From: Mycoplasmatota bacterium
Lineage (GTDB): Bacteria; Bacillota_I; Bacilli_A; Haloplasmatales; Haloplasmataceae
Length of the DNA stretch: 64,000 nt
Reading direction: 5' to 3'
Assembly (NCBI GenBank): GCA_018394295.1
Contig: CP074573.1
Location: 1,619,156 to 1,683,155 of the forward strand
Shown: one piece after another, positions 7,060-49,815 of the stretch
Layout of the letters: each line of letters begins with the position of its first letter
Numbering within the stretch: the first letter of the stretch is position 1
Translations under genes and position numbers: made by a program
The notes under the pieces: generated by a model
Seen by the model: the letters and a program-made list of their open reading frames with translations, nothing else
What the model was told of the DNA's origin: nothing
The model's database searches: none

Positions 7060-7101
7060 AACACTGTTCACATTATAACTGAACAGCGTTCATTTTGTCA
7101 A
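7060..7101 (-). promoter_or_regulatory. Promoter and TetR operator of the MATE-tetR operon
   Basis: On the minus strand TTGACA (7101-7096) and TATAAT (7077-7072) are separated by 18 bp. The dyad AACACTGTTCA-N9-TGAACAGCGTT (7060-7090; 10 of 11 positions symmetric, inner seven perfect) covers the -10 and half of the spacer. Binding there would occlude RNA polymerase, as expected for a TetR repressor. Confidence 0.8.
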
Positions 7102-7375
7102 TAAAAAGAATAAACACTTAATCTAATAAAGTTACAGACAGTATCATAAGAAGTCTACATTATATTTAATATACCCAATTTTGACAGTTGATTTCATATA
7201 TTTAACACTTTACGTTATTTATAAGATTATAACTAATTTAGGAAGATAACATTTTAAGTAATATATCGTCCACTCTAAAAAATTTATCTTAATCTACCTA
7301 AAACTTAACATTAGATAGATTAAATAAAATAATTTTTTTTATTTGATTTAATCTGTACAGTTTTTCTCTGTAAAT
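7102..7375. other. Intergenic region without recognisable gene
   Basis: Very AT-rich DNA between the MATE promoter and a degraded coding remnant. I see no open frame, RNA gene or convincing hairpin. Confidence 0.5.
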
Positions 7376-7733: not shown

Positions 7734-7774
7734 AAAACATGCCATTTCAATTAACATTAAAATGGCATGTTTTT
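7734..7774. terminator. Strong hairpin terminator, probably bidirectional
   Basis: The perfect 14-bp arms AAAACATGCCATTT (7734-7747) and AAATGGCATGTTTT (7760-7773) are separated by 12 nt. The plus strand continues into TTTTTG and the minus strand into TTTTCATTTTG. It can end the plus-strand remnant and the minus-strand giant-protein/lipoprotein operon. Confidence 0.8.
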
Positions 7775-7863: not shown

Positions 7864-8385
7864 TTATTCTATTACGGTTACAACCCTTGTTATTGTTGAT
7901 TCATTTCCACTTGAATCAATTGCTGAATAAATAATTGTATACGTTCCTACTACTGCAGTATCAACTGTACCTATAGTTGTGTAAGTAATTATTTCTAATG
8001 AATTGTCAGTTACAGTAATCCCTGCATCTGTCCAAGTACTATTTACTTTAATTGTATCTACTCCAAGATTAAGTTCTAAAACAGGGGCTGTTTGATCTGT
8101 TACCATTACATATCTAATATCAGTATATGCTAATTCATTATAAGTTATTGAATATTCAATTTCATATAACCCTAATACACTAGTATTTACAAATCCACTG
8201 ACTTTTGCGTTATACAAATCATCATCAATATATAGATTCGCACCAGCATCGATCCATTCTGTATTAATTTCAACTGTATCTACGCCTTTTAGTACAACAA
8301 AATTTATTTCTTCTGGTTCGTCATTTTTACACCCAGTTAGAGTGATAGTAAATATTGTTAATAATACTAAAATATATTTTCTCAT
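7864..8385 (-). CDS. Lipoprotein with two DUF5011-like Ig domains
   Basis: A 173-residue protein starting MRKYILVLLTIFTITLTGCK, a lipoprotein signal with lipobox LTGC (lipidated Cys at about residue 19). The mature part is two DUF5011-like beta-sandwich domains. The first contains VDTVEINTEWIDAGA and the second VDTIKVNSTWTDAGI followed by TVGTYTIIYSAIDSSGNES-type sequence. These are the same domain type as the C-terminus of the giant protein. Its ATG overlaps the giant gene's stop (8382-8385), so the two are coupled. The likely location is the outer face of the membrane. A role as partner or anchor for the giant protein is inference. Confidence 0.85.
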   Translation of the reverse strand: MRKYILVLLTIFTITLTGCKNDEPEEINFVVLKGVDTVEINTEWIDAGANLYIDDDLYNAKVSGFVNTSVLGLYEIEYSITYNELAYTDIRYVMVTDQTAPVLELNLGVDTIKVNSTWTDAGITVTDNSLEIITYTTIGTVDTAVVGTYTIIYSAIDSSGNESTITRVVTVIE

Positions 8386-11300
8386 AATATATCACTCTCC
8401 TCTTCTTTTCTATAGTACAGTGTTAGCTTCGTGCCCACTTCATATACAAATATATATCTCATATATGTATAATTTACACCATCAACCTCAATACCATATG
8501 TAATTGTATAAATACCAGCTGTATTTATATCTACATTTCTATCTATTACATCACAACTTTGTTTAATTCCATCAACATAAACAATGCAATCTCCATCGTC
8601 ATATTCATTACCAAGTGGTATAGTTGTTGATGCTGATTCTAGTTCAAAGGAAACTGTTGGTTTTTTTTCTAATACATTAACATATCTTTTTATAATTGAT
8701 ACATTTCCAAATGAATCAGTAACACGATATGTCAATTCATAAACACCTGCGGTTGATGAATTAACTGTACCTTCTATGATTGTAGTAGTGTCACTATAAT
8801 CATTTATAACAATTCCATAATCAGTGTATTCTTCATTTACATGAATCGTATCTCTACCTGGATTTAATGTAATAATTGGTGCTGTGGTATCATCAACTGT
8901 CACATTAAATGTTTGGGTTGTTTCATTAAATGATTCATCTACTACTTTTACTGTTACTGTATATGTTCCTGGTGTATCGTAATCGACATTGTCAGTAACC
9001 TCAACCTTAGTTAAAGTTCCATCTACATTGTCAGATTCATTTTCTATTAATGTAGTCCAATCGATATCTGAAACACCTACTTCTATTGTTTGGTCAACTA
9101 TTATATCAAACGTAGGGGCTGTAGTATCTTCGACTGTCACATTAAATGTTTGAGCTGTTTCATTGTTTGATTCATCTACTACTTTAACTGTTACTGTATA
9201 AGTTCCTGGTGTATTATAATCGACATTGTCAGTTACTTCAATAAGTGTTAAAGTTCCATCTGAGTTATCTGATTCATTAGTTATCAATGTAGTCCAATCT
9301 ATATCTGAAACGCCTGCTTCTATTATTTGATCCGTTATCGAATCGAATGTTGGAGCTGTGATATCTTCAACTGTCACATTAAATGTTTGGGATGTTTCAT
9401 TGTTTGATTCATCTATTACTTTTACTGTTACTGTATAGATGCCTGGTGTATCATAATCAACATTATCAGTTACTTCAACTTTTGTTAAAGTTCCATCTGA
9501 GTTGTCAGATGCATTTGTAATGAATATAGTCCAATCTATATTTAAAACGCCTGCTTCTATTATTTGATCTTCTATTGTGTCAAATGTTGGGGCTGTTGTA
9601 TCTTCAACCGTCACATTAAATGATTGAGTTGTTTCATTTAATGATTCATCTACTACTTTTACTGTTGCTGTATATGTTCCTGGTGTATCATAATCAACAT
9701 TATCAGTTACCTCAACATTAATTAAGATTCCGTCTGAGTTATCTAAAGTATTTTGGATTAATGTCGTCCAATCGATATCTGAAACACCTGTTTCTACTAT
9801 TTGATCAGCTATCGGGTCAAATGTTGGAGCTGTTGTATCTTCAACCGTCACTTTAAATGATTGAGTTGTTTCATTTAATGATTCATCTACTACTTTTACT
9901 GTAACAGTATAAGTTCCTGGTGTATCATAATCGACATTGTCAGTAACTTCAACTTTTGTTAAAGTTCCATCTGAATTATCAGATGCATTTTCTATCAATG
10001 TAGTCCAATCGATATCTGAAACACCTGCTTCAATTATTTGGTCAGCTATTAAATCGAATGTTGGAGCTGTTGTATCTTCAACAGTCACATTAAATGATTG
10101 AGATGTTTCATTTAATGATTCATCTACTAATTTAACTGTTACTGTATAGATGCCTGGTGTATCGTAATCGACATTGTCAGTTACTTCAACATTAGTTAAG
10201 ATTCCGTCTGAGTTATCTAAAGTATTTTGGATTAATGTCGTCCAATCGATATCTGAAACGCCTGCTTCTATTGTTTGGTCTAATATTTCATCAAATGTTG
10301 GGGCTGTTGTATCTTCGACTGTCACATTAAATGTTTGTGTTGTTTCATTTAATGATTCATCTACTACTTTTATCGTTACTGTATACATGCCTGGCTTATC
10401 GTAATCGACATTGTCAGTTACTTCAACCTTAGTTAAAGTTCCGTCTGAGTTATCAGATTCATTTGTTATGAGTGTAGTCCAGTCTATATCTGAAATACCT
10501 GCTTCTATTATTTGATCAGCTATCGGGTCCAATGTTGGAGCTGTTGTATCTTCCACTGTCACATTAAAGGTTTGAGCTGTTTCATTAAATGATTCATCTA
10601 CTACTTTTACTGTTACTGTATAGGTTCCTGGTGTATCGTAATCAACATTATCAGTTACCTCAACCTTAGTTAAAGTTCCGTCTGAGTTATCTAAAGTATT
10701 TTGGATTAATGTCGTCCAATCGATATCTGAAATGCCTGCTTCTATGGTTTGATCTAATATTGTATCAAATGTTGGCTCTGTCGTATCTTCAACCGTCACA
10801 TTAAATGTTTGTGTTGTTTCATTGTTGGATTCATCTACTACTTTTACTGTCACTGTATATGTTCCTGGTGTATCATAATCAACATTATCAGTTACCTCAA
10901 CCTTAGTTAAAGTTCCGTCTGAGTTATCTAAAGTATTTTGGATTAATGTCGTCCAATCGATATCTGAAACACCTGCTTCTATTGTTTGATCTTCAATTAA
11001 ATCAAATATTGGAGATATTGTATCTTCAACTGTCACATTAAATGTTTGGGATGTTTCATTATTTGATTTATCTACTACTTTTACAGTCACTGTATAGGTT
11101 CCTGGTGTATCATAATCGACATTATCAAATACTTCAACCTTAGTTAAAGTTCTGTCTGAGTTATCTAAAGGATTTTGGATTAATGTCGTCCAATCTATAT
11201 CAGAAACACCTGCCTCTATTGTTTGATTTTCAATTAAATCAAACGTAGGGTTTGTTGTATCTACAACTGTTACATTAAATGTTTGTGTTGTTTCATTGTT

Positions 11301-14300
11301 TGATTCATCTAATACTATTACAGTCACTGTATAGGTTCCTAGGGTATCGTAATCAACATTATCAATTACTTCAACCTTAGATAAAATTCCATCTGAATTG
11401 TCAGATTCATTTGTTATAAATGTAGTCCAATCTATATCTGAAACGCCTGCTTCTATTGTTTGATCTTCAATTAAATCAAACGTAGGGTTTGTTGTATCTA
11501 CAACTGTCACATTAAATGTTTGGGATGTTTCATTATATGATTCATCTACTACTTTTACAGTCACTGTATAGATTCCTGGTGTATCATAATCGACATTGTC
11601 AATTACCTCAACCTTAGTTAAAATTCCGTCTGAGTTATCTAAAGTATTTTGGATTAATGTCGTCCAGTCAATATCTGAAACACCTGCTTCTATTGTTTGA
11701 TTTTCAATTAAATCAAACGTAGGGTTTGTTGTATCTACAACTGTCACATTAAATGTTTGGGATGTTTCATTATTTGATTCATCTACTACTTTTACTGTTA
11801 CTGTATAGATTCCTGGGGTATCGTAATCGACATTGTCAGTTACTTCAACCTTAGTTAAAGTTCCGTCTGAGTTATCTAAAGCATTTTGGATTAATGTCGT
11901 CCAATCTATATCTGAAACACCTGCTTCTATTGTTTGATTTTCAATTAAATCAAACGTAGGGTTTGTTGTATCTACAACTGTCACATTAAATGTTTGGGAT
12001 GTTTCATTATTTGATTCATCTACTACTTTTACTGTTACTGTATAGATTCCTGGGGTATCATAATCAACATTATCAGTTACCTCAACCTTAGTTAAAGTTC
12101 CATCTGAGTTATCTAAAGTATTTTGGATTAATGTCGTCCAGTCTATATCTGAAACACCTGCTTCTATGGTTTGATTTTCAATTAAATCAAACATAGGGTT
12201 TGTTGTATCTACAACTGTCACATTAAATGTTTGGGATGTTTCATTGTTGGATTCATCTACTACTTTTACTGTTACTGTATAGATTCCTGGGGTATCATAA
12301 TCAACATTATCAGTTACCTCAACCTTAGTTAAAGTTCCATCTGAGTTATCTAAAGTATTTTGGATTAATGTCGTCCAGTCTATATCTGAAACACCTGCTT
12401 CTATGGTTTGATTTTCAATTAAATCAAACATAGGGTTTGTTGTATCTACAACTGTCACATTAAATGTTTGGGATGTTTCATTATTTGATTCATCTACTAC
12501 TTTTACAGTCACTGTATAGATTCCTGGGGTATCGTAATCGACATTGTCAATTACCTCAACCTTAGTTAAAATTCCGTCTGAGTTATCTAAAGTATTTTGG
12601 ATTAATGTCGTCCAGTCAATATCTGAAACACCTGCTTCTATTGTTTGATCTAATATTGTATCAAATGTTGGCTCTGTCGTATCTTCAACCGTCACATTAA
12701 ATGTTTGAGTTGTTTCATTGTTTGATTCATCCAATACTATTACAGTCACTGTATAGGTTCCTGGTGTATCGTAATCGACATTATCAATTACTTCAACCTT
12801 AGTTAAAGTACCATCTGAGTTATCTAAAGTATTTTGGATTAATGTCGTCCAATCGATATCTGAAACACCTGCTTCTATGATTTGATCTTCAATTAAATCA
12901 AAGGTAGGGTTTGTTGTATCTTCAACTGTCACATTAAATGTTTGGGTTGTTTCATTGTTTGATTCATCCAATACTATTACAGTCACTGTATAGGTTCCTG
13001 GTGTATCGTAATCAACATTATCAGTTACCTCAACCTTAGTTAAAGTTCCATCTGAATTGTCAGATTCATTTGTTATAAATGTAGTCCAATCTATATCTGA
13101 AACGCCTGCTTCTATGATTTGATCTAATATTGTATCAAATGTTGGTGCTGTCGTATCTTCAACCGTCACATTAAATGTTTGAGTTGTTTCATTGTTTGAT
13201 TCATCCAATACTATTACAGTCACTGTATAGGTTCCTGGTGTATCGTAATCGACATTGTCAGTTACTTCAACCTTAGTTAAAGTTCCGTCTGAATTGTCAG
13301 ATTCATTTGTTATAAAAGAAGTCCAATCTATATCTGAAACGCCTGCTTCTATGATTTGATCTAATATTGTATCAAATGTTGGTGCTGTCGTATCTTCAAC
13401 CGTCACATTAAATGTTTGAGTTGTTTCATTGTTTGATTCATCCAATACTATTACAGTCACTGTATAGGTTCCTGGTGTATCGTAATCAACATTATCAGTT
13501 ACCTCAACCTTAGTTAAAGTTCCGTCTGAGTTATCTAAAGTATTTTGGATTAATGTCGTCCAATCGATATCTGAAATGCCTGCTTCTATGATTTGATCTA
13601 ATATTGTATCAAATGTTGGTGCTGTCGTATCTTCAACTGTCACAATAAATGTTTGAGTTGTTTCATTGTTTGATTCATCCAATACTATTACAGTCACTGT
13701 ATAGGTTCCTGGTGTATCATAATCGACATTATCAAATACTTCAACCTTAGTTAAAGTTCCGTCTGAGTTATCTAAAGTATTTTGGATTAATGTCGTCCAA
13801 TCGATATCTGAAACACCTGCTTCTATTGTTTGGTCTAATATTTCATCAAATGTTGGGTTTGTTGTATCTTCAACCGTCACATTAAATGTTTGGGTTGTTT
13901 CATTGTTTGATTCATCCAATACTATTACAGTCACTGTATAGGTTCCTGGTGTATCGTAATCAACATTATCAGTTACCTCAACCTTAGTTAAAGTTCCATC
14001 TGAATTGTCAGATTCATTTGTTATAAATGTAGTCCAGTCTATATCTGAAACACCTGCTTCTATGGTTTGATCTTCAATTAAATCAAACATAGGGTTTGTT
14101 GTATCTTCCACTGTCACATTAAATGTTTGTGATGTTTCATTGTTTGATTCATCTACTACTATTACTGTTACGGAATATATTCCGAGCGAATCATATTCGA
14201 CATTGTCAGTTACTTCAATAAGTGTTAATATGCCATCTGAATTGTCAGATGCATTCTCTATTAATGTAAGCCAGTTAATATCTGAAACACCTGCTTCTAT

Positions 14301-17300
14301 TATTTGGTCTGCTATTGTATCAAATGTTGGGTCTGTTGTATCTTCCACTGTCACAATAAATGTTTGAATTGTGTCATTTAATGATTCATCTACTACTTTT
14401 ACTGTTACTGTATAGGTTCCTGGTGTATCATAATCTACATTGTCAGTTACTTCAACCTTAGTTAAAGTTCCATCTGAGTTATCAGATTCATTTGTTATAA
14501 ATGTAGTCCAGTCTATATCTGAAACACCAGCTTCTATTATTTGATCTTCTATTATATCAAACGTAGGGTCTGTTGTGTCTTCCACTGTCACATTAAATAT
14601 TTGAGATGTTTCATTGTTTGATTCATCTACTACTTTTACTGTTACTGTATATGTTCCTGGTGTATCATAATCGACATTGTCAGTTACTTCAAAGATAAAT
14701 AATTGTCCATCACTGTTATCTGATATATTAATTATTAAAAATCTCCAATCAATGTCATCATATTCATCTTCTATTATTGTTTGAACCGCTATCGGATCAA
14801 ATGTTGGAGCTGTTGTATCTACAACTATCACATTAAATGTTTGGGATGTCTCATTGTTTGATTCATCCAATACTTTTACAGTCACTGTATAGGTTCCTGG
14901 GGTATCGTAATCAACATTATCAGTTACTTCAACTTTTGTTAATGTACTATCTGAATTGTCGGATTCATTCGTAATAAATGTAGTCCAATCGATATCTAAT
15001 ACACCTGCTTCTATTGTTTGGTCTGCTATTGTATCAAATATTGGATCTGTTATATCTTCAACTGTAACATTGAATGTTTGGGTAAAGTAATTATAACTCT
15101 CATCAAATAAAGCTATAGATACATCATAAATTCCAGGATTATTATAATCAACATTATCTGCTACTTCAAAGATGAATAATTGTCCATTACTATTATCTGA
15201 TGCATTTTCAACTAAAAATCTCCAATCAATGTCATCATATTCATCTTCTATAATTATTTGATCCGCTATCAAATCAAATGTTGGAGGTGTTGTATCTTCG
15301 ACTGTCACATTAAATGTTTGAGTTGTTTCATTATTTGATTCATCTACTACTTTTACTGTTACTGTATAAGTTCCTGGTGTATCATAATTGACATTGTCAG
15401 TTATTTCATAAATGAACAATTGTCCATCACTATTTTCTAATATATTTTCTATTAACAATCTCCAATCAATATCATCATATTCATCTTCTATAATTGTTTG
15501 ATCAGCTATCAGGTCAAATGTTGGAGCTGTTGTATCTTCAACTGTCACATTAAATGTTTGAATTGTTTCATTATTTGATTCATCTACTACTTTTACAGTA
15601 ACTGTATAGGTTCCGAGCGAATCATAATCAACATTGTCAGTTACTTCAACTTTTGTTAGAGTTCCATTTGAATTATCTGATTCATTAGTTATTAATGTAG
15701 TCCAATCTATATCTGAAACGCCTGCTTCTATTATTTGATCAGCTATTGGATTAAATGTTGGAGCTGTTGTATCTTCAACTGTCACATTAAATATTTGAGA
15801 AATTTCATTAAATGATTCATCTACTACTTTTACAATAACTGTATAAGTTCCTGGGGTATTATAATCGACATTGTCAGTTACTTCAATAAGTGTTAATATA
15901 CCATCTGAATTATCAGATGCATTTTCTATTAATGTAGTCCAATCGATATCAGTATTTATATCCTCTATAATTGTCTGATCCTCTATTGAGTCAAATATTG
16001 GAGCTGTTGTATCTTGGACTGTCACATTAAATGTTTGAGAAATTTCATTAAATGATTCATCTACTACTTTTACTGTTACTGTATAGATGCCTGGTGTATC
16101 GTAATCTACATTGTCAGTTACTTCAATAAGGGTTAATATACCATCTGAATTGTCATATGCATTTTCTATTGATGTAGTCCAATTGATATCTGAAATGCCT
16201 GCTTCTATTGTTTGATCATCTATTATATCAAATATTGGTGATATTGTATCTTTAACTGTCACATTAAATGTTTGGGATGTCTCATTGTTTGATTCATCCA
16301 ATACTTTTACAGTCACTGTATAGGTTCCTGGTGTGTCATAATCAACATTATCAATTACTTCAACCTTAGTTAAAATTCCATCTGAATTGTCAGATTCATT
16401 AGTTATCAATGTAGTCCAATCGATATCTGAAATACCTGCTTCTATTATTTGATCATCTATTATATCAAATATTGGTGATATTGTATCTTCAACGGTCACA
16501 TTAAATGTTTGTGTTGTTTCATTGTTTGATTCATCTACTACTTTTACTGTGACGGTATAGATTCCTGGTGTATCATAATCTACATTATCAGTTACTTCAA
16601 CTTTTGTTAAAGTACCATCTGAATTATCGTATTCATTCGTTATGAATGTAGACCAATCTATATCTAAAACTCCTGCTTCTACTATTTGGTCCGCTATTGG
16701 ATTAAATGTTGGAGCTGTTGTATCTTCAACTATCACATTAAATGTTTGAGATGTTTCATTATTTGATTCGTCTACTACTTTTACAGTCACAGTATAGGTT
16801 CCTGGGGTATCATAATCAACATTATCAGTTACTTCAATAAGTGTTAATATGCTATCTGAATTGTCAGATGCATTCGTAATGAATGTAGTCCAATCTATAT
16901 CTGAAACGCCTGCTTCTATTGTTTGGTCCACTATTGTGTCGAATGTAGGGGCTGTTGTATCTTCAACTGTCACATTAAATGTTTGAGATGTTTCATTGTT
17001 TGATTCATCCACTACTTTTACTGTGCCGGTATAGATTCCTGGGGTATCATAATCGACATTGTCAGTTACTTCAACTTTTGTTACAGTTCCATTTGAATTA
17101 TCAGATGCATTTTCTATTAATGTAGTCCAATCGATATCTGAAAGGCCTGCTTCTATTGTCTGATCCGCTATCGGATCAAATGTTGGAACTGTTATATCTT
17201 CAACTGTCACATTAAATGTTTGTAATGTTTCATTTAATGATTCATCTACTACTTTTACTGTGACGGTATAGATTCCTGGAGTATCATAATCGACATTGTC

Positions 17301-23300: not shown

Positions 23301-26300
23301 CCAATCAATGTCATCATATTTATCTTCTATAATTGTTTGATCTGCTATCAAATCAAATGTTGGAGCTGTTATATCTTCAACTGTCACATTAAATGTTTGT
23401 GATGTTTCATTATTTGATTCATCTACTACTTTTACAGTAACTGTATAGGTTCCTGGGGTATCATAATCGACATTGTCAGTTACTTCAAAAATGAACAATT
23501 GTCCATCACTATTTTCTAATATATTTTCAATTAAAAATTCCCAATCAATGTCAATATTTTCATCTTCTATAATTGTTTGATCTGCTATCGGATCGAATGT
23601 TGGGGCTGTTGTATCTTCAACTGTCACATTAAACGTTTGTGTTGTTTCATTTAATGATTCATCTACTACTTTCACAGTAATGGTATAGGTTCCTGGGGTA
23701 TCGTAATCGACATTGTCAGTTACTTCAACCTTAGTTAAAGTTCCATCTGAATTGTCAAATTCATTTGTTATATAAGTAGCCCAATCAATATCTGAAACAC
23801 CTGCTTCTATTATTTGATCCGCTATCGAATCGAATGTTGGAGCTGTGGTATCTTCAACAGTCACATTAAATGTTTGTGATGTTTCATTGCTTGATTCATC
23901 TGCTACTTTAACTGTCACTATATAGGTTCCTGAGGTATCATAATCGACATTGTCAGTTACTTCAATAAGGGTTAATATGTCATCTGAATTGTCAGATGCA
24001 TTTTCTATTAATGTAGTCCAATCTATATCTATAATGCCTGCTTCTATTATTTGATCTACTATCGGATCAAATGTTGGGGCTGTTGTATCTTCAACTGTCA
24101 CATTAAATGTTTGTGTTGTTTCATTATTTGATTCATCTACTACTTTTACTGTTACTGTATAGATACCTGGTGTATCATAATCGACATTGTCAGTTACTTC
24201 AACCTTAGTTAAAGTTCCATCTGAATTGTCAGATGCATTTTCTATTAATGTAGTCCAATCGATATCAGTATTCATATCCTCTATAATTATCTGATCTAGT
24301 ATAGTATCAAATGTTGGGGCTATTGTATCTTTAACTATTACATTAAATGTTTGGGATGTTTCATTGTTTGATTCATCTACTACTTTTACTGTTACTGTAT
24401 AAGTTCCTGGTGTATCGTAATCAACAATATCAATTACTTCAACCTTAGTTAAAGTTCCATTTGAATTGTCAGATTCATTTTCTATTAATGTAGTCCAGTC
24501 TATATCTGAAGCGCCTGCTTCTATTATTTGATCTTCTATCGGATCAAATGTTGGGGCTGTTATATCTTCAACTGTCACATTAAATGTTTGTGTTGTTTCA
24601 TTATTTGATTCATCTACTACTTTAACTGTTACTGCATAGATGCCTGGTGTATCATAATCGACATAATCAGTTACTTCAACCTTAGTTAAAGTTCCATCTG
24701 AATTGTCAGATGCATTAGTTATCAATGTAGTCCAATCTATATCAGTATACATATCCTCTATAATTATCTGATCTTGTATAGTATCAAATGTTGGAGCTGT
24801 TGTATCTTCAACTGTCACATTAAATGTTTGTGTTGTTTCATTGTTTGATTCATCTACTAATTTTACAGTCACTGGATATATTCCTGGTGTATCATAATCG
24901 ACATTGTCAGTTACTTCAATAAGTGTTAATATACCATCTGAATTGTCAGATGCATTTGTTATATAAATAGTCCAATCGATATCTGAAACACCTGATTCTA
25001 TTATTTGATCTTCTATTATATCAAACGTAGGGTTTGTTGTATCTTCAACCGTCACATTAAATGTTTGGGATGTTTCATTATTTGATTCATCTGAAACTTT
25101 TACTGTCACAGTATAGGTTCCTGGGGTATCATAATCAACATTGTCAGTTACTTCAATTAGTGTTAAAGTTCCATCTGAATTGTCGGATTCATTTGTTATA
25201 AATGTAGTCCAGTCTATATCTGAAACACCTGCTTCTATTATTTGATTCGCTATCGAATCAAATGTTGGAGCTGTTATATCTTCAACAGTCACATTAAATG
25301 TTTGGGATGTTTCATTGTTTGATTCATCTACTACTTTTACTGTTACTGTATATATGCCTGGTGTAACGTAATCAACATTGTCAATTACCTCAACCTTAGT
25401 TAAAGTTCCATCTGAATTGTCAGATTCATTAGTTATCAATGTAGTCCAATCTATATCAGTATACATATCCTCTATAATTATCTGATCTTGTATAGTATCA
25501 AATGTTGGGGTTGTTGTATCTTCAACTGTCACATTAAATGTTTGTGTTGTTTCTTTGTTTGATTCATCTACTACTTTTACTGTTACTGTATATATGCCTG
25601 GTGTATCATAATCAACATTGTCAATTACCTCAACCTTAGTTAAAGTTCCATCTGAATTGTCAGATGCATTTTCTATTAATGTAGTCCAATCTATATCTGA
25701 AACGCCTGCTTCTATTATTTGATCAGCTATCGGATCAAATGTTGGAGCTGTTGTATCTTCAACTGTCACATAAAAGGGTTGAGATGTTTCATTGTTTGAT
25801 TCATCTACTACTTTAACTGTTACTGTATAGATGCCTGGTGTATCATAATCGACATTGTCAGATACTTCAATAAGTGTTAATATGTCATCTGAATTGTCAG
25901 ATGCGTTTTCTATTAATGTAGTCCATTCGATATCTGAAACACCTGCTTCTGTTGTTTGATTTTCTATTGTATCAAATGTTGGAGCTGTTGTATCTTCAAC
26001 TGTCACATTAAATGTTTGAGTTGTTTCATTGTTGGATTCATCTACTACTTTTACTGTTACTGTATAGATGCCTGGTGTATCATAATCGACATTGTCAATT
26101 ACCTCAACCTTAGTTAAAGAACCATCTGAATTATCGGATTCATTCGTAATGAATGTAGTCCAATCTATATCAGTATTCATATCCTCTATAATTATCTGAT
26201 CTTGTATAGTATCAAATGTTGGAGATGTCGTATCATCAACTGTCACACTAAATGTTTGAGTTGTTTCATTTAATGATTCATCTACTACTTTTACTGTAAC

Positions 26301-29300
26301 AGTATAAGTTCCTGGTGTATCGTAATTGACATTGTCAGTTACTTCAATAAGTGTTAAAGTTCCATCTGAATTGTCAGATGCATTTTCTATTATTGTAGTC
26401 CAATCTATATCTGAACCGCCTGCTTCTATTGTCTGATTCGCTATTGGATCAAATGTAGGAACTGTTGTATCTTCAACTGTCACATTAAAAGTTTGAGATG
26501 TTTCATTGTTAGATTCATCTACTACTTTTACTATGACGGTATATATACCTGTTGTATCATAATCAACATTGTCAATTACCTCAACCTTAGTTAAAGTTCC
26601 ATCTGAATTGTCGGAATCATTCGTAATGAATGTAGTCCAATCTATATCTAAAACACCTGCTTCTATTGTTTGATTAACTATTGTGTCAAATGTTGGTGCT
26701 ATTGTATCTTCAACTGTCACATTAAATGTTTGAGTTGTTTCATTGTTGGATTCGTCTACTACTTTTACTGTTACTGTATAAGTTCCTGGTGTATCATAAT
26801 CAACATTGTCAGTAACTTCAAGTTTTGTTAAAGTTCCATTTAATCCTGTTCCATCTAAGTTATCTGATTCATATGTTATGAATGTAGTCCAATCGATATC
26901 TGAAACGCCTGCTTCTATTGTTTGATCAGCTATTGGGTCAAATGTTGGTGCTACTACATCTTCAAATACATCTTTCGATGCAATTACAAATCTATCTTCT
27001 ACAATGAATGTAAATATAAACTTATTCCATCCAGCACTATAAACATAATCACTATAGTCAACAGATGAATAATAATCTTGATTGTTATATGTTACGAATT
27101 GATTGGTTAAATTTGTAGATTCTAAATGAACCTCTGAATCAAAATTATAAAAATTCATTTCTTCAAAACTACCACCACTTGTTGCAACATCATCTCCAAA
27201 AACGACAATTGTTCTATTTCGAGTGGTTGTATTATTAGAATTATCAGTTGCTGTATAGGTTATATTATACTCACCTGGAGTATCCCAATCAACTGATCCT
27301 ACAATTGTAACAGTTAAAACATCACCATTATCATCATTAGATGAAGCAGCAATTAAATCATCATTTCCTAATGATTGTTCAATATATAATTCGTATGGAT
27401 ATTCATACTCTATTGATGGCGGAAAAGTATCATCAACTAATGTTGTGGTAGCGGTATTATCGCCAGTAACTAAAAGCTGTTCTCCATTAGTGAATATAAA
27501 AGTATTAACAGTAAATGTTACTTCATCTCCTATATTCCACGCATTTGGAATATAAACATCAATTCTTCCATGACTAGTTTCAAATTTAGTAGTATCATAT
27601 AAAAGATTATTTATTATCAATCCTGACAATTCAGGACCAACATTATATTCAGGAAAAATAGATAATTTTATATTGTTAAAAGTCCCATTTATTTCATTCT
27701 CAATATATGTTAATTTTATTTCGTCAACTTGAGCGAGAGTATTGTTAATTTGTGTTGGAGTATATCTAGATATTGTTGTCCCATCTCCTAATTGGCCATA
27801 ATAATTCCTTCCCCATGTGAAGATTCTTCCTTCAGAGGTAATTGTTGAGGTATGAGTACCACCTAAAATGACTTCGGTGATTGTTTCTTCTAATCCTAAA
27901 TTAAAATTACTTGTGATTTCTGTTGGAATACTTTTATTAGTTGTTGTTCCATCTCCTAATTGGCCAGTATGATTAGCTCCCCATGTGTAGATTCTTCCTT
28001 CTGAGGTGATTACTGAAGAATGATAATGTCCTAAAATGACTTCAGTGATTGTTTCTTCAAATCCTAAAATAAAATTACTTGTAATTTCTATTGGAATATT
28101 TTTATCAATACTTGTTCCATCTCCTAATTGGCCATAATAATTCATTCCCCATGTGAAGATTCTACCTTCTGAGGTGATTGCTGAGGAATGAGAATATCCT
28201 AAACTGACTTCGGTGATTGTTTCTCCTACTCCTATTGTGATTTCTGTTGGAATACTTTTATTAGTTGTTGTTCCATCTCCTAACTGTCCATAATTATTAT
28301 TTCCCCATGTGAAGATTCTTCCTTCTGAGGTGATTGCTGATGAATGAGTACAACCTAAAATGACTTCGGTGATTGTTTCTCCTTCTCCTAAATTGAAATG
28401 ACTTGTGATTTCTGTTGGAGTATATCTAGCAGTTGTTGTTCCATCTCCTAACTGACCATAATAATTATTTCCCCATGTGAAGATTCTTCCTTCTGAGGTG
28501 ATTGCTGATGAATGATATTTTCCTAAACTGACTTTGGTAATTGTTTCTCCATCTCCTAAATAAAAATGACTTGTGATTTCTGTTGGAGTATATCTAGCAG
28601 TTGTTGTTCCATCTCCTAGTTGACTGGTATTATTACATCCCCATGTGAAGATTCTTCCTTCTGATGTGATTACTGAGGTATTAGAATAGCCTAAACTGAC
28701 TTCGGTGATTGTTTCTCCTTCTCCTAAATTGAAATTACCTGTGATTTCTGTTGGAGTATTTCTAGCAGTTGTTGTTCCATCTCCTAGTTGGCCATAATCA
28801 TTAAATCCCCATGTAAAGATTCTTCCTTCTGAGGTGATTGCTAAGGAATGATAAGTTCCTAAACTTAATTTTTGAATTGTTTCACTTATCGGTAAGTATA
28901 TTTTTTCAACAACAACATCATTAAAATTACTTGTGATTTCTGTCGGAGTACTTTTATTAGTTGTTGTTCCATCTCCTAGTTGGCTATCATTATTACGTCC
29001 CCATGTGAAAATTTTTCCTTCTGAAGTGATTGCTGAGGAATGATGACATCCTAAACTTAATTCTTGAATTGTTTCTCCAACTCCTAAATTAAATTTACTT
29101 GTAATTTCTGTTGGAGTATTTCTAGATGTCGTTGTTCCGTCTCCTAACTGGCCATAACCATTATATCCCCATGTATAGATTCTTCCTTCTGAGGTGATTG
29201 CTGAGGAATTATTTCCTAAACTTACTTTCGTGATTGTTTCTCCATCTCCTAGATTGTTGAAATTACTTGTGATTTCTGTTGGATTACTTTTATTAGTTGT

Positions 29301-30182
29301 TGTTCCATCTCCTAGTTGGCTATCATTATTACGTCCCCATGTGAACATTCTTCCTTCTGATGTGATTGCTGAGGAATGATAATATCCTAAACTGACTTTG
29401 GTGATTGTCTCTCCAACTTCTAGATTGAAATTACTTGTAATTTCTGTTGGAGTATATCTATCATCTGTTGTTCCATCTCCTAGTTGACCATATTCATTAT
29501 TTCCCCATGTGAAGATTTTTCCTTCTGATGTGATTGCTGAAGAATGAAAACATCCTAAACTTACTTCGGTGATTGTTTCTCCTACTCCTATTGTTATTTC
29601 TGTTGGAGTATATCTATTAGCTGTTGTTCCATCTCCTAGTTGGCCAAAATTATTCCATCCCCATGTGTAGAGTTTTCCTTCTGAAGTAATTGCTGAGGAA
29701 TGATTACTTCCTAAACTGACTTCTTTGATTGTTTCTCCTACTCCTATTGTGATTTCTGTCGGAGTATTTCTAGATATAGTTGTTCCATCTCCTAATTGAC
29801 CATTGGAATTAGCTCCCCATGTGAAGATTCTTCCTTCTGAGGTAATTGCTGAGGAATGATAATCTCCTAAACTGACTTTGGTAATTGTTTCTCCTACTAC
29901 TAAATTGAAATTACTTGTGATTTCTGTTGGAATACTTTTATCAGTATTTGTTCCATCTCCTAACTGGCCATTGGAATTAGCTCCCCATGTGAAGATTCTT
30001 CCTTCTGAAGTGATTGCTGAGGAATGATTAGATCCTACATTTATCTGAACAAAATCTAAATCCTCATAGTATTCAAAGGAATCTTCTCCCTTTTGTACCA
30101 TTTCTGCAGATACCTCTTTAGTAAGAAATAGATTAGTTACTAAAAATATCCCGAATAGTATTAAAAATGCAATCTTTTTCAT
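8382..30182 (-). CDS. Giant secreted RCC1-repeat and Ig-repeat surface protein (7266 aa)
   Basis: A signal peptide (MKKIAFLILFGIFLVTNLFL, cleavage probably after VSA near residue 26) is followed by 14 RCC1 repeats (about residues 40-805) with the core G-RIFTWG-N--GQLGDGT. Next comes a roughly 270-residue linker with one Ig-like domain (IVGSVDWDTPGEYNITYTAT), then about 75 repeats of 79 residues (about 1078-7095). Two DUF5011-like domains close it: DTIHVNEEYTDYGI and a final one ending FVYEVGTKLTLYYRK. It has no LPXTG motif, C-terminal helix or dockerin. The protein is acidic and nearly cysteine-free in the repeats. AAAGGAGAG precedes the ATG. A stalk with a double-propeller binding head is the natural reading; the ligand is unknown. 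The frame is intact across 21.8 kb. Confidence 0.93.
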   Translation of the reverse strand: MKKIAFLILFGIFLVTNLFLTKEVSAEMVQKGEDSFEYYEDLDFVQINVGSNHSSAITSEGRIFTWGANSNGQLGDGTNTDKSIPTEITSNFNLVVGETITKVSLGDYHSSAITSEGRIFTWGANSNGQLGDGTTISRNTPTEITIGVGETIKEVSLGSNHSSAITSEGKLYTWGWNNFGQLGDGTTANRYTPTEITIGVGETITEVSLGCFHSSAITSEGKIFTWGNNEYGQLGDGTTDDRYTPTEITSNFNLEVGETITKVSLGYYHSSAITSEGRMFTWGRNNDSQLGDGTTTNKSNPTEITSNFNNLGDGETITKVSLGNNSSAITSEGRIYTWGYNGYGQLGDGTTTSRNTPTEITSKFNLGVGETIQELSLGCHHSSAITSEGKIFTWGRNNDSQLGDGTTTNKSTPTEITSNFNDVVVEKIYLPISETIQKLSLGTYHSLAITSEGRIFTWGFNDYGQLGDGTTTARNTPTEITGNFNLGEGETITEVSLGYSNTSVITSEGRIFTWGCNNTSQLGDGTTTARYTPTEITSHFYLGDGETITKVSLGKYHSSAITSEGRIFTWGNNYYGQLGDGTTTARYTPTEITSHFNLGEGETITEVILGCTHSSAITSEGRIFTWGNNNYGQLGDGTTTNKSIPTEITIGVGETITEVSLGYSHSSAITSEGRIFTWGMNYYGQLGDGTSIDKNIPIEITSNFILGFEETITEVILGHYHSSVITSEGRIYTWGANHTGQLGDGTTTNKSIPTEITSNFNLGLEETITEVILGGTHTSTITSEGRIFTWGRNYYGQLGDGTTISRYTPTQINNTLAQVDEIKLTYIENEINGTFNNIKLSIFPEYNVGPELSGLIINNLLYDTTKFETSHGRIDVYIPNAWNIGDEVTFTVNTFIFTNGEQLLVTGDNTATTTLVDDTFPPSIEYEYPYELYIEQSLGNDDLIAASSNDDNGDVLTVTIVGSVDWDTPGEYNITYTATDNSNNTTTRNRTIVVFGDDVATSGGSFEEMNFYNFDSEVHLESTNLTNQFVTYNNQDYYSSVDYSDYVYSAGWNKFIFTFIVEDRFVIASKDVFEDVVAPTFDPIADQTIEAGVSDIDWTTFITYESDNLDGTGLNGTLTKLEVTDNVDYDTPGTYTVTVKVVDESNNETTQTFNVTVEDTIAPTFDTIVNQTIEAGVLDIDWTTFITNDSDNSDGTLTKVEVIDNVDYDTTGIYTVIVKVVDESNNETSQTFNVTVEDTTVPTFDPIANQTIEAGGSDIDWTTIIENASDNSDGTLTLIEVTDNVNYDTPGTYTVTVKVVDESLNETTQTFSVTVDDTTSPTFDTIQDQIIIEDMNTDIDWTTFITNESDNSDGSLTKVEVIDNVDYDTPGIYTVTVKVVDESNNETTQTFNVTVEDTTAPTFDTIENQTTEAGVSDIEWTTLIENASDNSDDILTLIEVSDNVDYDTPGIYTVTVKVVDESNNETSQPFYVTVEDTTAPTFDPIADQIIEAGVSDIDWTTLIENASDNSDGTLTKVEVIDNVDYDTPGIYTVTVKVVDESNKETTQTFNVTVEDTTTPTFDTIQDQIIIEDMYTDIDWTTLITNESDNSDGTLTKVEVIDNVDYVTPGIYTVTVKVVDESNNETSQTFNVTVEDITAPTFDSIANQIIEAGVSDIDWTTFITNESDNSDGTLTLIEVTDNVDYDTPGTYTVTVKVSDESNNETSQTFNVTVEDTTNPTFDIIEDQIIESGVSDIDWTIYITNASDNSDGILTLIEVTDNVDYDTPGIYPVTVKLVDESNNETTQTFNVTVEDTTAPTFDTIQDQIIIEDMYTDIDWTTLITNASDNSDGTLTKVEVTDYVDYDTPGIYAVTVKVVDESNNETTQTFNVTVEDITAPTFDPIEDQIIEAGASDIDWTTLIENESDNSNGTLTKVEVIDIVDYDTPGTYTVTVKVVDESNNETSQTFNVIVKDTIAPTFDTILDQIIIEDMNTDIDWTTLIENASDNSDGTLTKVEVTDNVDYDTPGIYTVTVKVVDESNNETTQTFNVTVEDTTAPTFDPIVDQIIEAGIIDIDWTTLIENASDNSDDILTLIEVTDNVDYDTSGTYIVTVKVADESSNETSQTFNVTVEDTTAPTFDSIADQIIEAGVSDIDWATYITNEFDNSDGTLTKVEVTDNVDYDTPGTYTITVKVVDESLNETTQTFNVTVEDTTAPTFDPIADQTIIEDENIDIDWEFLIENILENSDGQLFIFEVTDNVDYDTPGTYTVTVKVVDESNNETSQTFNVTVEDITAPTFDLIADQTIIEDKYDDIDWRFLVENASDNSDGQLLIIEVVDNVNYNNPGIYDVSIALFDESYNCFSQTFYVTVEDITAPTFDTIQDQIIIEDMYTDIDWTTLITNASDNSDGTLTKVEVTDNVDYNTPGTYTVKVKVVDESNNETSQTFNVTVEDITVPTFDLIADQIIEAGISDINWATYIVNESDNSDGMLTKVEVIDNVDYDTLGTYTVTVKVVDESFNETTKTFNVTVEDTTAPTFDTIADQIIEAGVSEIDWATYITNESDNSDGTLTIVEVTDNVDYDTPETYTVTVKVVDESNNETSQTFSVTVVDTTAPTFDTIGNKNIEAGFSDINWTVLIKNASDNSDGTLTKVEVTDNVDYDTPGTYTVTVKVVDESNNETAQTFNVTVNDSTAPTFDIIDDQTIEAGVSDIDWATYITNESDNSDGILTKVEVTDNVDYDTLGTYTVTVKVVDESFNETSQTFNVTVEDTTAPTFDPIADQTIEASISDIDWANYITNASDNSDGTLTKVEVTGNVDYDTLGIYTVTVKVIDESLNETSQTFSVTVEDTTAPTFDIIADQTIEAGVSDIDWATYITNESDNSDGILTKVEVIDNVDYDTPGTYTVIVKVVDESFNETSQTFNVTVEDTIAPTFDLIEDQTIEAGVSDIDWITFITNASDNSDGTLTKVEVTDNVDYDTLGIYTVTVKVIDESLNETSQTFSVTVEDTTAPTFDIIADQTIEAGVSDIDWTTLITNESDNSDGILTKVEVIDNVDYDTLGTYTVTVKVVDESNNETSKTFNVTVEDTTAPTFNPIADQIIEADVLDIDWATYITNESDNSDGFLTKVEEIDNLDYDTPGTYTVTVKVVDESNNETTQTFNVTVEDTTAPTFDTIEDHTIEAGVSGIDWATYITNESDNSDGILTKVEVIDNVDYDTLGTYTVIVKLVDESNNETSQTFNVTVEDTTSPIFDPIVDQIIEAGISDIDWTTLITNESDNSDGILTKVEVIDNVDYDTLGIYTVQVKLVDESNNETSQTFNVTVEDTTAPTFDLIADQTIEAGVSDIDWTTLISNTSDNTDGTLTKVEVTDNVDYDTPGIYTVTVKLVDKSNNETSQTFNVTVEDTTAPTFDLIEDQTIEAGVSDIDWTTLITESDNSDGTLTLIEVTDNVDYDTLGIYTVTVKVVDESNNETTQTFNVTVIDTTAPTFDSIEDQTIIEDMNTDIDWTTLITNESDNTDGIITKVEVTDNVVYDTPGTYTVTVKVVDESNNETSQTFYVTVEDITAPTFDVIDDQIIESGVSDIDWTTLIENASDNSDGILTFIEVIDNVDYDRLGTYTVTVKVVDESNNETTQTFNVTVEDTTAPTFDLIVDQTIEAGVSDIDWTTLIENASDNSDGTLTKVEVTDNVVYDTLGIYTVTVKLVDKSLNETSQTFNVTVEDTTAPTFDTIVNQTIEAGVSDIDWTTFITNESDNSDGILTLIEVTDNVDYDTPGTYTVTVKVVDESNNETSQTFNVTVVDTINPMFDLIENQTIEAGVLDIDWTTFITNESDNSDGILTKVEVIDNVDYDTPGTYSVTVKVVDESNNETSQTFNVTVNDTTSPTFDLIEDQTIIEDVNADIDWTTLIESASDNSDGILTFIEVTDNVDYNTPGTYTVTVKVVDESNNETSQTFNVTVEDTTSPTFDLIANQIIEAGVLDIDWTTFITNESDNSDGILTKVEVTDNVDYDTPGTYTVTVKVVDESNNETAQTFNVTVEDTTSPTFDLIADQTIEAGISDIDWTTLIENASDNSDGILTLIEVTDNVDYDTLGIYTVTVKVVDESNNETTQTFNVTVEDTTAPIFDPIADQTIEAGVSDIDWTTLISNESDNSDGILTKAEVIDNIDYDTLGIYTVIVKVVDESNNETTQTFNVAVEDTTSPIFDLIADQTIIEDVYDDIDWRFLVENTSDNSDGQLFIIEAVDNVNYNNPGIYDVSITLFDESYNYFSQTFNVTVEDITAPTFDIIQDQIIIEDMNTDIDWTTLITNESDNTDGTLTKVEVTDNVDYDTPGIYTVTVKVVDESLNETLQTFNVTVEDITVPTFDPIADQTIEAGLSDIDWTTLIENASDNSNGTVTKVEVTDNVDYDTPGIYTGTVKVVDESNNETSQTFNVTVEDTTAPTFDTIVDQTIEAGVSDIDWTTFITNASDNSDSILTLIEVTDNVDYDTPGTYTVTVKVVDESNNETSQTFNVIVEDTTAPTFNPIADQIVEAGVLDIDWSTFITNEYDNSDGTLTKVEVTDNVDYDTPGIYTVTVKVVDESNNETTQTFNVTVEDTISPIFDIIDDQIIEAGISDIDWTTLITNESDNSDGILTKVEVIDNVDYDTPGTYTVTVKVLDESNNETSQTFNVTVKDTISPIFDIIDDQTIEAGISDINWTTSIENAYDNSDGILTLIEVTDNVDYDTPGIYTVTVKVVDESFNEISQTFNVTVQDTTAPIFDSIEDQTIIEDINTDIDWTTLIENASDNSDGILTLIEVTDNVDYNTPGTYTVIVKVVDESFNEISQIFNVTVEDTTAPTFNPIADQIIEAGVSDIDWTTLITNESDNSNGTLTKVEVTDNVDYDSLGTYTVTVKVVDESNNETIQTFNVTVEDTTAPTFDLIADQTIIEDEYDDIDWRLLIENILENSDGQLFIYEITDNVNYDTPGTYTVTVKVVDESNNETTQTFNVTVEDTTPPTFDLIADQIIIEDEYDDIDWRFLVENASDNSNGQLFIFEVADNVDYNNPGIYDVSIALFDESYNYFTQTFNVTVEDITDPIFDTIADQTIEAGVLDIDWTTFITNESDNSDSTLTKVEVTDNVDYDTPGTYTVTVKVLDESNNETSQTFNVIVVDTTAPTFDPIAVQTIIEDEYDDIDWRFLIINISDNSDGQLFIFEVTDNVDYDTPGTYTVTVKVVDESNNETSQIFNVTVEDTTDPTFDIIEDQIIEAGVSDIDWTTFITNESDNSDGTLTKVEVTDNVDYDTPGTYTVTVKVVDESLNDTIQTFIVTVEDTTDPTFDTIADQIIEAGVSDINWLTLIENASDNSDGILTLIEVTDNVEYDSLGIYSVTVIVVDESNNETSQTFNVTVEDTTNPMFDLIEDQTIEAGVSDIDWTTFITNESDNSDGTLTKVEVTDNVDYDTPGTYTVTVIVLDESNNETTQTFNVTVEDTTNPTFDEILDQTIEAGVSDIDWTTLIQNTLDNSDGTLTKVEVFDNVDYDTPGTYTVTVIVLDESNNETTQTFIVTVEDTTAPTFDTILDQIIEAGISDIDWTTLIQNTLDNSDGTLTKVEVTDNVDYDTPGTYTVTVIVLDESNNETTQTFNVTVEDTTAPTFDTILDQIIEAGVSDIDWTSFITNESDNSDGTLTKVEVTDNVDYDTPGTYTVTVIVLDESNNETTQTFNVTVEDTTAPTFDTILDQIIEAGVSDIDWTTFITNESDNSDGTLTKVEVTDNVDYDTPGTYTVTVIVLDESNNETTQTFNVTVEDTTNPTFDLIEDQIIEAGVSDIDWTTLIQNTLDNSDGTLTKVEVIDNVDYDTPGTYTVTVIVLDESNNETTQTFNVTVEDTTEPTFDTILDQTIEAGVSDIDWTTLIQNTLDNSDGILTKVEVIDNVDYDTPGIYTVTVKVVDESNNETSQTFNVTVVDTTNPMFDLIENQTIEAGVSDIDWTTLIQNTLDNSDGTLTKVEVTDNVDYDTPGIYTVTVKVVDESNNETSQTFNVTVVDTTNPMFDLIENQTIEAGVSDIDWTTLIQNTLDNSDGTLTKVEVTDNVDYDTPGIYTVTVKVVDESNNETSQTFNVTVVDTTNPTFDLIENQTIEAGVSDIDWTTLIQNALDNSDGTLTKVEVTDNVDYDTPGIYTVTVKVVDESNNETSQTFNVTVVDTTNPTFDLIENQTIEAGVSDIDWTTLIQNTLDNSDGILTKVEVIDNVDYDTPGIYTVTVKVVDESYNETSQTFNVTVVDTTNPTFDLIEDQTIEAGVSDIDWTTFITNESDNSDGILSKVEVIDNVDYDTLGTYTVTVIVLDESNNETTQTFNVTVVDTTNPTFDLIENQTIEAGVSDIDWTTLIQNPLDNSDRTLTKVEVFDNVDYDTPGTYTVTVKVVDKSNNETSQTFNVTVEDTISPIFDLIEDQTIEAGVSDIDWTTLIQNTLDNSDGTLTKVEVTDNVDYDTPGTYTVTVKVVDESNNETTQTFNVTVEDTTEPTFDTILDQTIEAGISDIDWTTLIQNTLDNSDGTLTKVEVTDNVDYDTPGTYTVTVKVVDESFNETAQTFNVTVEDTTAPTLDPIADQIIEAGISDIDWTTLITNESDNSDGTLTKVEVTDNVDYDKPGMYTVTIKVVDESLNETTQTFNVTVEDTTAPTFDEILDQTIEAGVSDIDWTTLIQNTLDNSDGILTNVEVTDNVDYDTPGIYTVTVKLVDESLNETSQSFNVTVEDTTAPTFDLIADQIIEAGVSDIDWTTLIENASDNSDGTLTKVEVTDNVDYDTPGTYTVTVKVVDESLNETTQSFKVTVEDTTAPTFDPIADQIVETGVSDIDWTTLIQNTLDNSDGILINVEVTDNVDYDTPGTYTATVKVVDESLNETTQSFNVTVEDTTAPTFDTIEDQIIEAGVLNIDWTIFITNASDNSDGTLTKVEVTDNVDYDTPGIYTVTVKVIDESNNETSQTFNVTVEDITAPTFDSITDQIIEAGVSDIDWTTLITNESDNSDGTLTLIEVTDNVDYNTPGTYTVTVKVVDESNNETAQTFNVTVEDTTAPTFDIIVDQTIEVGVSDIDWTTLIENESDNVDGTLTKVEVTDNVDYDTPGTYTVTVKVVDESFNETTQTFNVTVDDTTAPIITLNPGRDTIHVNEEYTDYGIVINDYSDTTTIIEGTVNSSTAGVYELTYRVTDSFGNVSIIKRYVNVLEKKPTVSFELESASTTIPLGNEYDDGDCIVYVDGIKQSCDVIDRNVDINTAGIYTITYGIEVDGVNYTYMRYIFVYEVGTKLTLYYRKEEESDIL
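8890..26950 (-). repeat. Tandem array of about 75 Ig-like (HYR/DUF5011-type) domain repeats
   Basis: A 237-bp coding unit is repeated in tandem with no spacer. Each 79-residue unit runs from APTFD-I-DQ-IEAGVSDIDW through a DNSDG-LTKVEV segment and DYDTPGTYTVTVKVVDESNN to TFNVTVEDTT. Some units are two or three residues longer, with IIEDMNTDIDW in place of IEAGVSDIDW. A divergent subtype with DDIDWRFLVEN and YNNPGIYDVSIALFDESYN recurs near 15.1, 17.5 and 23.2 kb. Units between about 10.1 and 14.2 kb are nearly identical to each other, indicating recent duplication or gene conversion. Confidence 0.93.
27780..30050 (-). repeat. Fourteen RCC1 (beta-propeller blade) repeats
   Basis: Counting the motif TWG-x(3-5)-QLGDGT gives 14 copies. 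Each is followed by a TPTEIT-type strand and HSSAITSEG. Most spacings are 50-54 residues. RCC1 propellers normally have seven blades, so this length fits two complete propellers. Confidence 0.88.
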
Positions 30183-32273: not shown

Positions 32274-32560
32274 TCCTTTGTGTAATAAAAAAAACAGTTA
32301 TCTCCCATATTCAGGGACGAATAACTGTTAAATCCGCGGTACCACCCAATTTGTCAAATGTGTTTTGACCTCTTTATACTATCTATCAATAGCTGTAATT
32401 TGATAACGGGTTACATCCGACTTAATCTACTAAGAAAACTGTTCAATAAGTAACTCATGGGTGTTTTTCAAATAATAACACTCTCTAGGCTTTCACCATA
32501 CCCTAGTTCGCTATACAGTAATTATTTATTTTACTTCTCCCAATCAAAGTAATTATTAGT
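32274..32560 (-). ncRNA. T-box leader (tRNA-Asn sensing) of asnB
   Basis: On the minus strand the T-box core GGGTGGTACCGCGG (32347-32334) is followed by a terminator: arms AACAGTTAT and ATAACTGTT plus a run of eight T (32288-32330). Upstream are the stem I features, including a GAGAAGTA-like start and GGGTATGGTGAAAGCC. The most likely specifier is AAC at 32443-32441, in TTGAACAG with the usual purine after the codon, which matches asparagine and the gene it controls. Confidence 0.92.
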
Positions 32561-34173: not shown

Positions 34174-34466
34174 TAAAAAAAACCCGTCCCTTGAAAAACA
34201 AGGGACGGGTTAAAACCGCGTTACCACCCTAATTCCATAAGCTTGTCAAAAAAAAACAAGTTATAGCACTTAGTACGTATCAATCAATACGCTATTCTTT
34301 TTAACGGTGAAAGACGCCGTCAATACTTACTTATTTCAGTATTGCTTCTCAGAGATGATTTTCGATAAACTTCTGAACATTGGCTTTCAGCATAACGCCA
34401 ACTCTCTGTAGATCATAATTTTACTTACTCTTTCTCTTCATAGAATTTATTTTTTTTATTGAATAT
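34174..34466 (-). ncRNA. T-box leader (probably tRNA-Ile sensing) of brnQ
   Basis: The T-box core GGGTGGTAACGCGG lies at 34229-34216 (minus strand). It is followed by a strong terminator, arms AACCCGTCCCTTG and CAAGGGACGGGTT with a T-run (34174-34211). Stem I (TTGGCGTTATGCTGAAAGCC) and stem II (CAATACT/AGTATTG) are visible. In GAAAATCATCTC the specifier is read as ATC at 34359-34357 or 34356-34354; both give isoleucine, agreeing with a branched-chain amino acid carrier downstream. Confidence 0.9.
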
Positions 34467-49717: not shown

Positions 49718-49775
49718 GATAATATAATCGAGTAGGAAGAAATAAATAGTTTTCTATTCATTTCAGACCTCTCAC

Positions 49776-49809
49776 ACCACCGTACGTACCGTTCGGTATA
49801 CGGCGGTTC
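49776..49809 (-). ncRNA. Group II intron domain V
   Basis: A 34-nt hairpin: outer stem ACCGCCGTA pairing with TACGGTGGT, a two-base bulge, and tip TACC-GAAC-GGTA. The catalytic triad is CGC, as in class IIC introns. Confidence 0.9.
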
Positions 49810-49815
49810 AATATG

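Follow-up and report, generated by a model that had tools for sequence, protein, structure and literature searches.

A putative two-gene anchoring module in Bacilli pairs secreted proteins with an overlapping two-Ig lipoprotein gene, with a 7266-residue giant as one extreme cargo

Two overlapping genes in the 64-kb window, the whole stretch of DNA analysed here, which comes from a bacterium related to the wall-less mycoplasmas, encode a giant secreted protein and a small lipoprotein built from the same Ig domain family, and the same arrangement recurs as 79 distinct pairs in five families of Bacilli. Judged from sequence, the pair is probably a general anchoring module, of which the giant is one extreme cargo. 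The lipoprotein (partner) probably holds the C-terminus of the secreted protein (cargo) at the membrane in trans, independently of the head that the cargo carries. We infer that the two are in physical contact with 1:1 stoichiometry, through a surface formed by the terminal Ig domain of the cargo (D2) and the first Ig domain of the partner (L1). The cassette looks like an unrecognised way to tether proteins to the cell. In the window, the pair and its parts lie as follows.

8382 to 30182, minus strand: cargo gene, encoding the secreted giant (7266 aa, 799 kDa)
30105 to 30182, minus strand: signal peptide, approximately residues 1-26, without a lipobox (sequence and hydrophobicity)
27738 to 30053, minus strand: head of 14 RCC1 repeats, residues ~44-815 (Pfam PF00415 and repeat spacing)
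8898 to 26951, minus strand: stalk, an Ig unit of ~79 aa repeated 76 times, spanning residues 1078 to ~7095 (unit profile and PF16403)
8676 to 8897, minus strand: D1, penultimate Ig domain of the giant, residues ~7096-7169 (alignment; model pLDDT 93.8)
8463 to 8675, minus strand: D2, terminal Ig domain, common to all paired cargos, residues ~7170-7240 (profiles, alignment and model)
8385 to 8462, minus strand: C-terminal tail of the giant, 26 residues, whose RKEEE codons contain the Shine-Dalgarno sequence of the partner
8397 to 8401, minus strand: AGGAG, Shine-Dalgarno sequence of the partner gene, located within the coding sequence of the cargo (sequence)
8382 to 8385, minus strand: ATGA overlap of the cargo and partner genes (sequence)
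7864 to 8385, minus strand: partner gene, encoding a 173-aa lipoprotein with two PF16403 Ig domains (frame and Pfam)
8329 to 8340, minus strand: partner lipobox LTGC, residues 16-19, with the lipid-bearing Cys19 (sequence; the Cys is invariant in a 37-row alignment)
8086 to 8307, minus strand: L1, first Ig domain of the partner, residues ~27-100 (alignment and model)
7867 to 8085, minus strand: L2, second Ig domain of the partner, residues ~101-173 (alignment and model)
7734 to 7773, minus strand: terminator-like stem of 18 pairs, 91 nt past the partner gene, the probable operon end (1 found against 0.2 expected)

The giant frame starts with ATG, is preceded by a good ribosome site (gaaaggagagagatatagATG) and runs through 7266 codons with no internal stop; the uninterrupted frame and its signal peptide had been described in an earlier note on this DNA. 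That note had also counted 14 RCC1 repeats, and both PF00415 (611.6 bits, 14 stretches in two sets of seven) and the TWG motif recover this number. The repeats are spaced by 52-56 residues, but by 64 from the seventh to the eighth, a gap which fits two seven-bladed propellers, and the head is probably such a double propeller. The count of about 75 Ig-like repeats of 79 residues was right within one, the unit profile giving 76 strong units at residues 1078-7100 with a mean pairwise identity of 0.78, after which come the divergent domains D1 and D2. Neighbouring units differ by 1306 non-synonymous and 610 synonymous codon differences; because most of these change the amino acid, the units are no artefact of recent copying. 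PF16403 (Bact_surface_Ig-like, formerly DUF5011) matches the stalk as well as the giant C-terminus and the partner lipoprotein, the two places where DUF5011-like domains had been proposed; scores for the cargo C-terminus, stalk and partner are 161.8, 161.1, 165.4 and 64.2 bits, with a curated cut-off of 27. The giant contains 1431 D+E and 203 K+R, a sevenfold excess of acidic residues that is expected for a secreted protein of a salt-loving organism.

A scan of the whole giant showed no LPXTG motif and no hydrophobic segment other than the signal peptide, so the reported absence of an anchor holds, as does the 4-bp ATGA overlap with a lipoprotein of the same domain. The other PF16403 proteins of this genome (for example L004, L005, L006 and L009) end, unlike the giant, in a membrane helix of their own and a basic tail. 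The genome (3.29 Mb in two contigs) gave no match to sortase in a search that was positive in control genomes. It has three penicillin-binding transpeptidase genes, and the organism is thus not to be called wall-less.

The earlier note had proposed to look for co-occurrence of the two genes across genomes, and this is what we find. In a first pass through 60 relatives with the lipoprotein as query, several had this small protein next to a large secreted frame. We then searched 395 genomes of the class with profiles for the lipoprotein and the cargo end. Partners were collected by their own profile, not by gene neighbourhood. The lipoprotein profile gave 38 full-length matches in 32 of the 395 genomes, with a clear score gap above generic Ig matches, and the 33 best matches of the D2 profile were all in paired loci. 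Three family-wide searches and a scan of named genomes enlarged the set to 79 distinct pairs from five Bacilli families, among them Haloplasmataceae, Acholeplasmataceae and Izemoplasma-type lineages. Carriers include Candidatus Izimaplasma HR2, Mycoplasmatota strain zrk2, Acholeplasmataceae and Tenericutes assemblies, and five genomes (G018, G059, G118, G200 and G214) have two or three pairs each. Among the 395 class genomes, the lipoprotein profile found no pair in the sister species of the window's genus, a point against the anchoring reading. NCBIfam contains no family that names the partner.

In each of the 79 pairs the cargo gene is the one immediately upstream, on the same strand, and the frames always overlap, by 1-14 nt, and are never spaced (4 nt in 46 pairs, 11 in 16, 8 in 10, 1 in four, 14 in two and 7 in one). 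Our choice of start codons favoured those near the cargo end; since the lipid-bearing Cys at position 16-22 allows few codons, the overlap is not an artefact of this choice. Every partner whose contig reaches upstream has a cargo there, and the cargo-less partners sit at contig ends (for example L085 in G152). These counts bear on the reading in which the lipoprotein is an independent surface protein that shares the operon by chance and does not interact with its neighbour. PF16403 domains are indeed common in these genomes, and gene overlap is not rare, two further adjacent gene pairs of the window overlapping by 4 and 8 nt. Hitch-hiking would, however, leave orphans and spaced pairs, while pairing holds 79 times out of 79 over five families with differing heads and overlap lengths. 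We regard a chance association as highly improbable.

The heads of the cargos differ, but every paired cargo terminates in D1, D2 and a short tail. The first 45 pairs comprise approximately 28 S8 subtilases with List_Bact repeats, 8 RCC1 stalks, 6 M6-like peptidases and a few unclear or truncated proteins. All paired subtilases whose N-terminus is readable show the Asp and Ser motifs, and the His motif is present in nearly every one; HETFH (HExxH) is present in all six paired M6 proteins. Among the paired RCC1 cargos, length varies between ~1350 and 7266 residues and the number of matched Ig units between 3 and 77; the giant described here is the extreme. The earlier note had seen a two-part adhesin in the giant and its lipoprotein. 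That description does not fit, because the cargos that share this C-terminal module and type of partner are mostly proteases (subtilases and M6), which indicates a general anchoring module rather than an adhesin-specific one. A role of the partner as a protease inhibitor was rejected, as the RCC1 cargos contain no protease. The shortest paired cargo (L081, in G329; ~350 aa) has an N-terminal domain with no Pfam match, whose sequence gives the impression of a somewhat cohesin-like fold. In the window's family, two RCC1-repeat proteins of ~490 residues (in G003 and G004) have no signal peptide and are apparently cytoplasmic.

The tail shared by the cargos is charged (KEE, RKxEE, KEDE, RR), and we considered these residues as a C-terminal sorting signal. 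This was rejected, since they coincide with the Shine-Dalgarno sequence of the partner: the match at cargo tails has a mean of 5.5 nt, against 1.3 nt at randomly chosen positions of these genes. The charged residues are there because the ribosome site of the partner lies within the cargo gene and is read in frame.

The distribution of membrane anchors favours attachment in trans. Only one of 40 full-length cargos has a possible lipobox of its own (in G004), and no C-terminal membrane helix was found in any of the 79 cargos. A lipobox Cys is present at position 16-22 in 76 of the 79 partners. The other three (L250, L251 and L252, from G483, G485 and G484 of one genus) lack the lipobox Cys and have instead a membrane helix at the N-terminus that stays uncleaved; their cargo and ribosome site are retained, as is an overlap of 4 nt, and the related G482 retains the lipobox. 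As the anchor was exchanged with overlap and cargo kept, membrane attachment, rather than the lipid itself, seems to be what is conserved in the partners. Relatives of the heads that occur without a partner show the opposite pattern. Of 15 secreted RCC1 proteins without a partner, collected regardless of anchors, 11 possess a lipobox themselves. Two unpaired M6-like relatives (L268 and L269, in G056 and G129) are single chains with a lipobox at the N-terminus, followed by Ig domains, and with leucine-rich repeats as well; their relation to M6 consists of one 46% match, the M6 domain not being called by Pfam. Overall, 13 of 17 unpaired head relatives have their own lipobox, compared with 1 of 40 paired cargos (Fisher p = 1e-8, phylogeny ignored). 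An anchor in cis and a partner in trans thus look like alternatives at the level of sequence. The earlier note had held that self-anchored homologues without the lipoprotein would speak against its proposal; such RCC1 and M6 proteins do exist, but all of them are in partner-less loci. Its suggestion that the lipoprotein holds the C-terminus of the giant is supported comparatively, by 79 strict pairs, anchor-free cargos, partners that stay anchored despite a change of anchor type, and unpaired heads that are mostly self-anchored, which make it probable.

PrsA and PrtM are membrane lipoprotein foldases, and the main rival reading is that the partner is a dedicated chaperone or maturation factor in their manner, after whose action the cargo is released. 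Genetic coupling and one-to-one pairing would suit a dedicated helper, as would the propeptide-like N-termini of the proteases that make up most cargos, and the analogous SprF is required both for secretion and for attachment (PMC9143113). However, a foldase (parvulin-type) domain is missing from the partner, which has only two Ig domains that resemble those of the cargo. It also serves unrelated heads, including non-enzymatic RCC1 stalks, which argues that the recognised part is the shared C-terminus, and the frequent lipobox of unpaired head relatives points to anchoring as the missing function. We therefore consider a chaperone improbable.

AlphaFold models of the cargo end (pLDDT 93.8) and the partner (pLDDT 96.3) are both two-domain Ig tandems, and the modelled cargo tail forms no strand pairing with the domain that it follows. 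The nearest solved structures are Moritella chitinase Ig domains, SraP, internalin K, Rib domains and the Bacteroides lipoprotein BT2262 (PDB 5fq3, 5fq7 and 5fq8). As modelled, both folds are ordinary Ig tandems, which counts against the anchoring reading. In mirror-tree comparisons, the D2-L1 correlation (r of 0.67 over 45 pairs and 0.72 over 79 pairs) was, in the set of 79, above that of every other domain pair, same-chain neighbours included. Gene conversion is an unlikely source of this correlation, as D2/L1 identity is nearly equal within pairs (0.295) and between pairs (0.266). In a control with 26 subtilase pairs, D2-L1 gave 0.46, D2-catalytic 0.46 and L1-catalytic 0.61. The catalytic domain correlates as well as D2 and L1 do, so shared ancestry explains much of the signal; since the excess mostly vanishes, we rejected D2-L1 coevolution as proof of contact, and it supports contact weakly. 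Residue-level mutual information was too noisy. Swapping paralogous partners within a genome lowered D2-L1 agreement in 7 of 8 cases.

The Ig tandems of both proteins resemble adhesin and S-layer domains, and several genomes hold more than one pair, as noted above for five of them. This would also suit a larger Ig-based lattice or fibre with cargo and partner as subunits, in which the partner is the membrane-proximal subunit and not a one-to-one anchor. The translational overlap in every pair favours matched product amounts, and the outcome of the partner swaps looks as if pairs were inherited as units; both fit a one-to-one anchor better, while being compatible with a lattice, which we hold to be somewhat less likely still than a chaperone.

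The nearest described arrangement to the proposed anchor is that of SprB/SprF and other cargo-PorP pairs of T9SS type B. SprB of Flavobacterium johnsoniae is a repetitive giant of 669 kDa; its cognate SprF, the product of an adjacent, co-expressed gene, keeps the C-terminal region of SprB at the surface, and T9SS type B CTD proteins and PorP-like partners form several cognate pairs per genome (PMC9143113). Both systems have a giant surface protein and a membrane partner encoded by an adjacent gene; in ours, adjacency and coupling hold in 79 of 79 pairs. SprF, however, is a 14-stranded outer-membrane beta-barrel of Gram-negative Bacteroidetes with type IX export, whereas the present partner is a small two-Ig lipoprotein of Bacilli, with no outer membrane involved, and cargo and partner have one domain family in common. 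Pfam gives only Ig families at the cargo end, with no T9SS type B CTD, and no FadL-family beta-barrel in the two-Ig partner. The cassette would thus work like SprB/SprF by analogy, with no sign of homology. The earlier note knew of no described two-part adhesin made of a secreted giant and a same-domain lipid anchor. Our searches of the open-access literature likewise gave no description of this cassette, although SprB/SprF works alike.

Other systems share single traits with it. BT2262, of the SusCD complex BT2261-2264, is a surface lipoprotein of a multiprotein surface complex and matches both alignments in sequence and fold, but it is an accessory of a nutrient importer, and we know of no gene overlap with a cargo or shared C-terminal module in its case. 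Sortase-attached LPXTG proteins also carry modular heads on Ig stalks and are attached at the C-terminus; they differ from the cassette in motif, in the C-terminal helix that all 79 cargos lack, and in the sortase for which this genome gave no match. Cohesin and dockerin form a dedicated domain pair by which secreted cellulosomal enzymes dock, in a similarly head-independent way, to a receptor that is anchored. The domains are others, however, no cohesin or dockerin match being found in the paired proteins scanned, and in the cassette each cargo has one partner, encoded by an overlapping gene. SiiE of Salmonella (595 kDa; PMC6272769) and a Mobiluncus mulieris adhesin (7651 aa; PMC10619420) resemble the giant in size, in having tens of consecutive Ig domains and in having a binding region, but SiiE uses type I secretion. 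The giant has an N-terminal signal peptide and is directly followed by the partner gene, in contrast to RTX/type I giant adhesins, and no type I module was seen among the neighbouring translations. In the literature abstracts consulted, none of these giant Ig-stalk adhesins has an RCC1 head or a two-Ig lipoprotein gene that overlaps its own.

Taken together, the two overlapping genes probably form one surface-display cassette. The cargo, which lacks an anchor, would be secreted via its signal peptide, and the partner would leave the cell as a lipoprotein that stays attached to the membrane. The two Ig domains of the partner would then bind D1-D2 of the cargo, leaving the C-terminus at the membrane and the N-terminal head outermost, and the overlapping frames, with the ribosome site of the partner inside the cargo gene, would tie the synthesis of both products. 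For the cargo of the window this predicts a 76-domain stalk, perhaps ~300 nm if extended (at ~4 nm per domain), tipped by a double RCC1 head; in relatives the same module carries subtilases, M6 peptidases or shorter RCC1 stalks.

Bacteria without a cell wall cannot use sortase, and to our knowledge little is known of how they display secreted enzymes or stalks, beyond ordinary lipoproteins or membrane proteins. We give slightly better than even chances to the broader proposal of a general, head-independent anchoring system of sortase-poor and wall-less Bacilli, in which a co-translated two-Ig lipoprotein captures any secreted protein ending in D1-D2 by an Ig-Ig handshake, replacing sortase and cell wall. 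A survey infers repeated loss of sortases and peptidoglycan genes in these Bacilli orders and reads it as reduced surface protein expression (PMC10868615). If the proposal is correct, two-gene anchoring in trans of proteases and giant stalks would fill this gap in surface display and would be a non-homologous, one-membrane counterpart of the SprB/SprF system of gliding Bacteroidetes. The sequence rule of a terminal D1-D2 with an overlapping partner would then predict surface enzymes in uncultured Izemoplasma- and Acholeplasma-type genomes.

Elsewhere in the window, a group II intron lies at 49727-51507 on the minus strand (Rfam D1-D4-3 and Intron_gpII), with a reverse transcriptase gene at 49816-51087. 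T-box leaders on the minus strand at 34198-34450 and 32310-32556 are located upstream of branched-chain amino acid transporter-like and asparagine synthetase-like genes, respectively.
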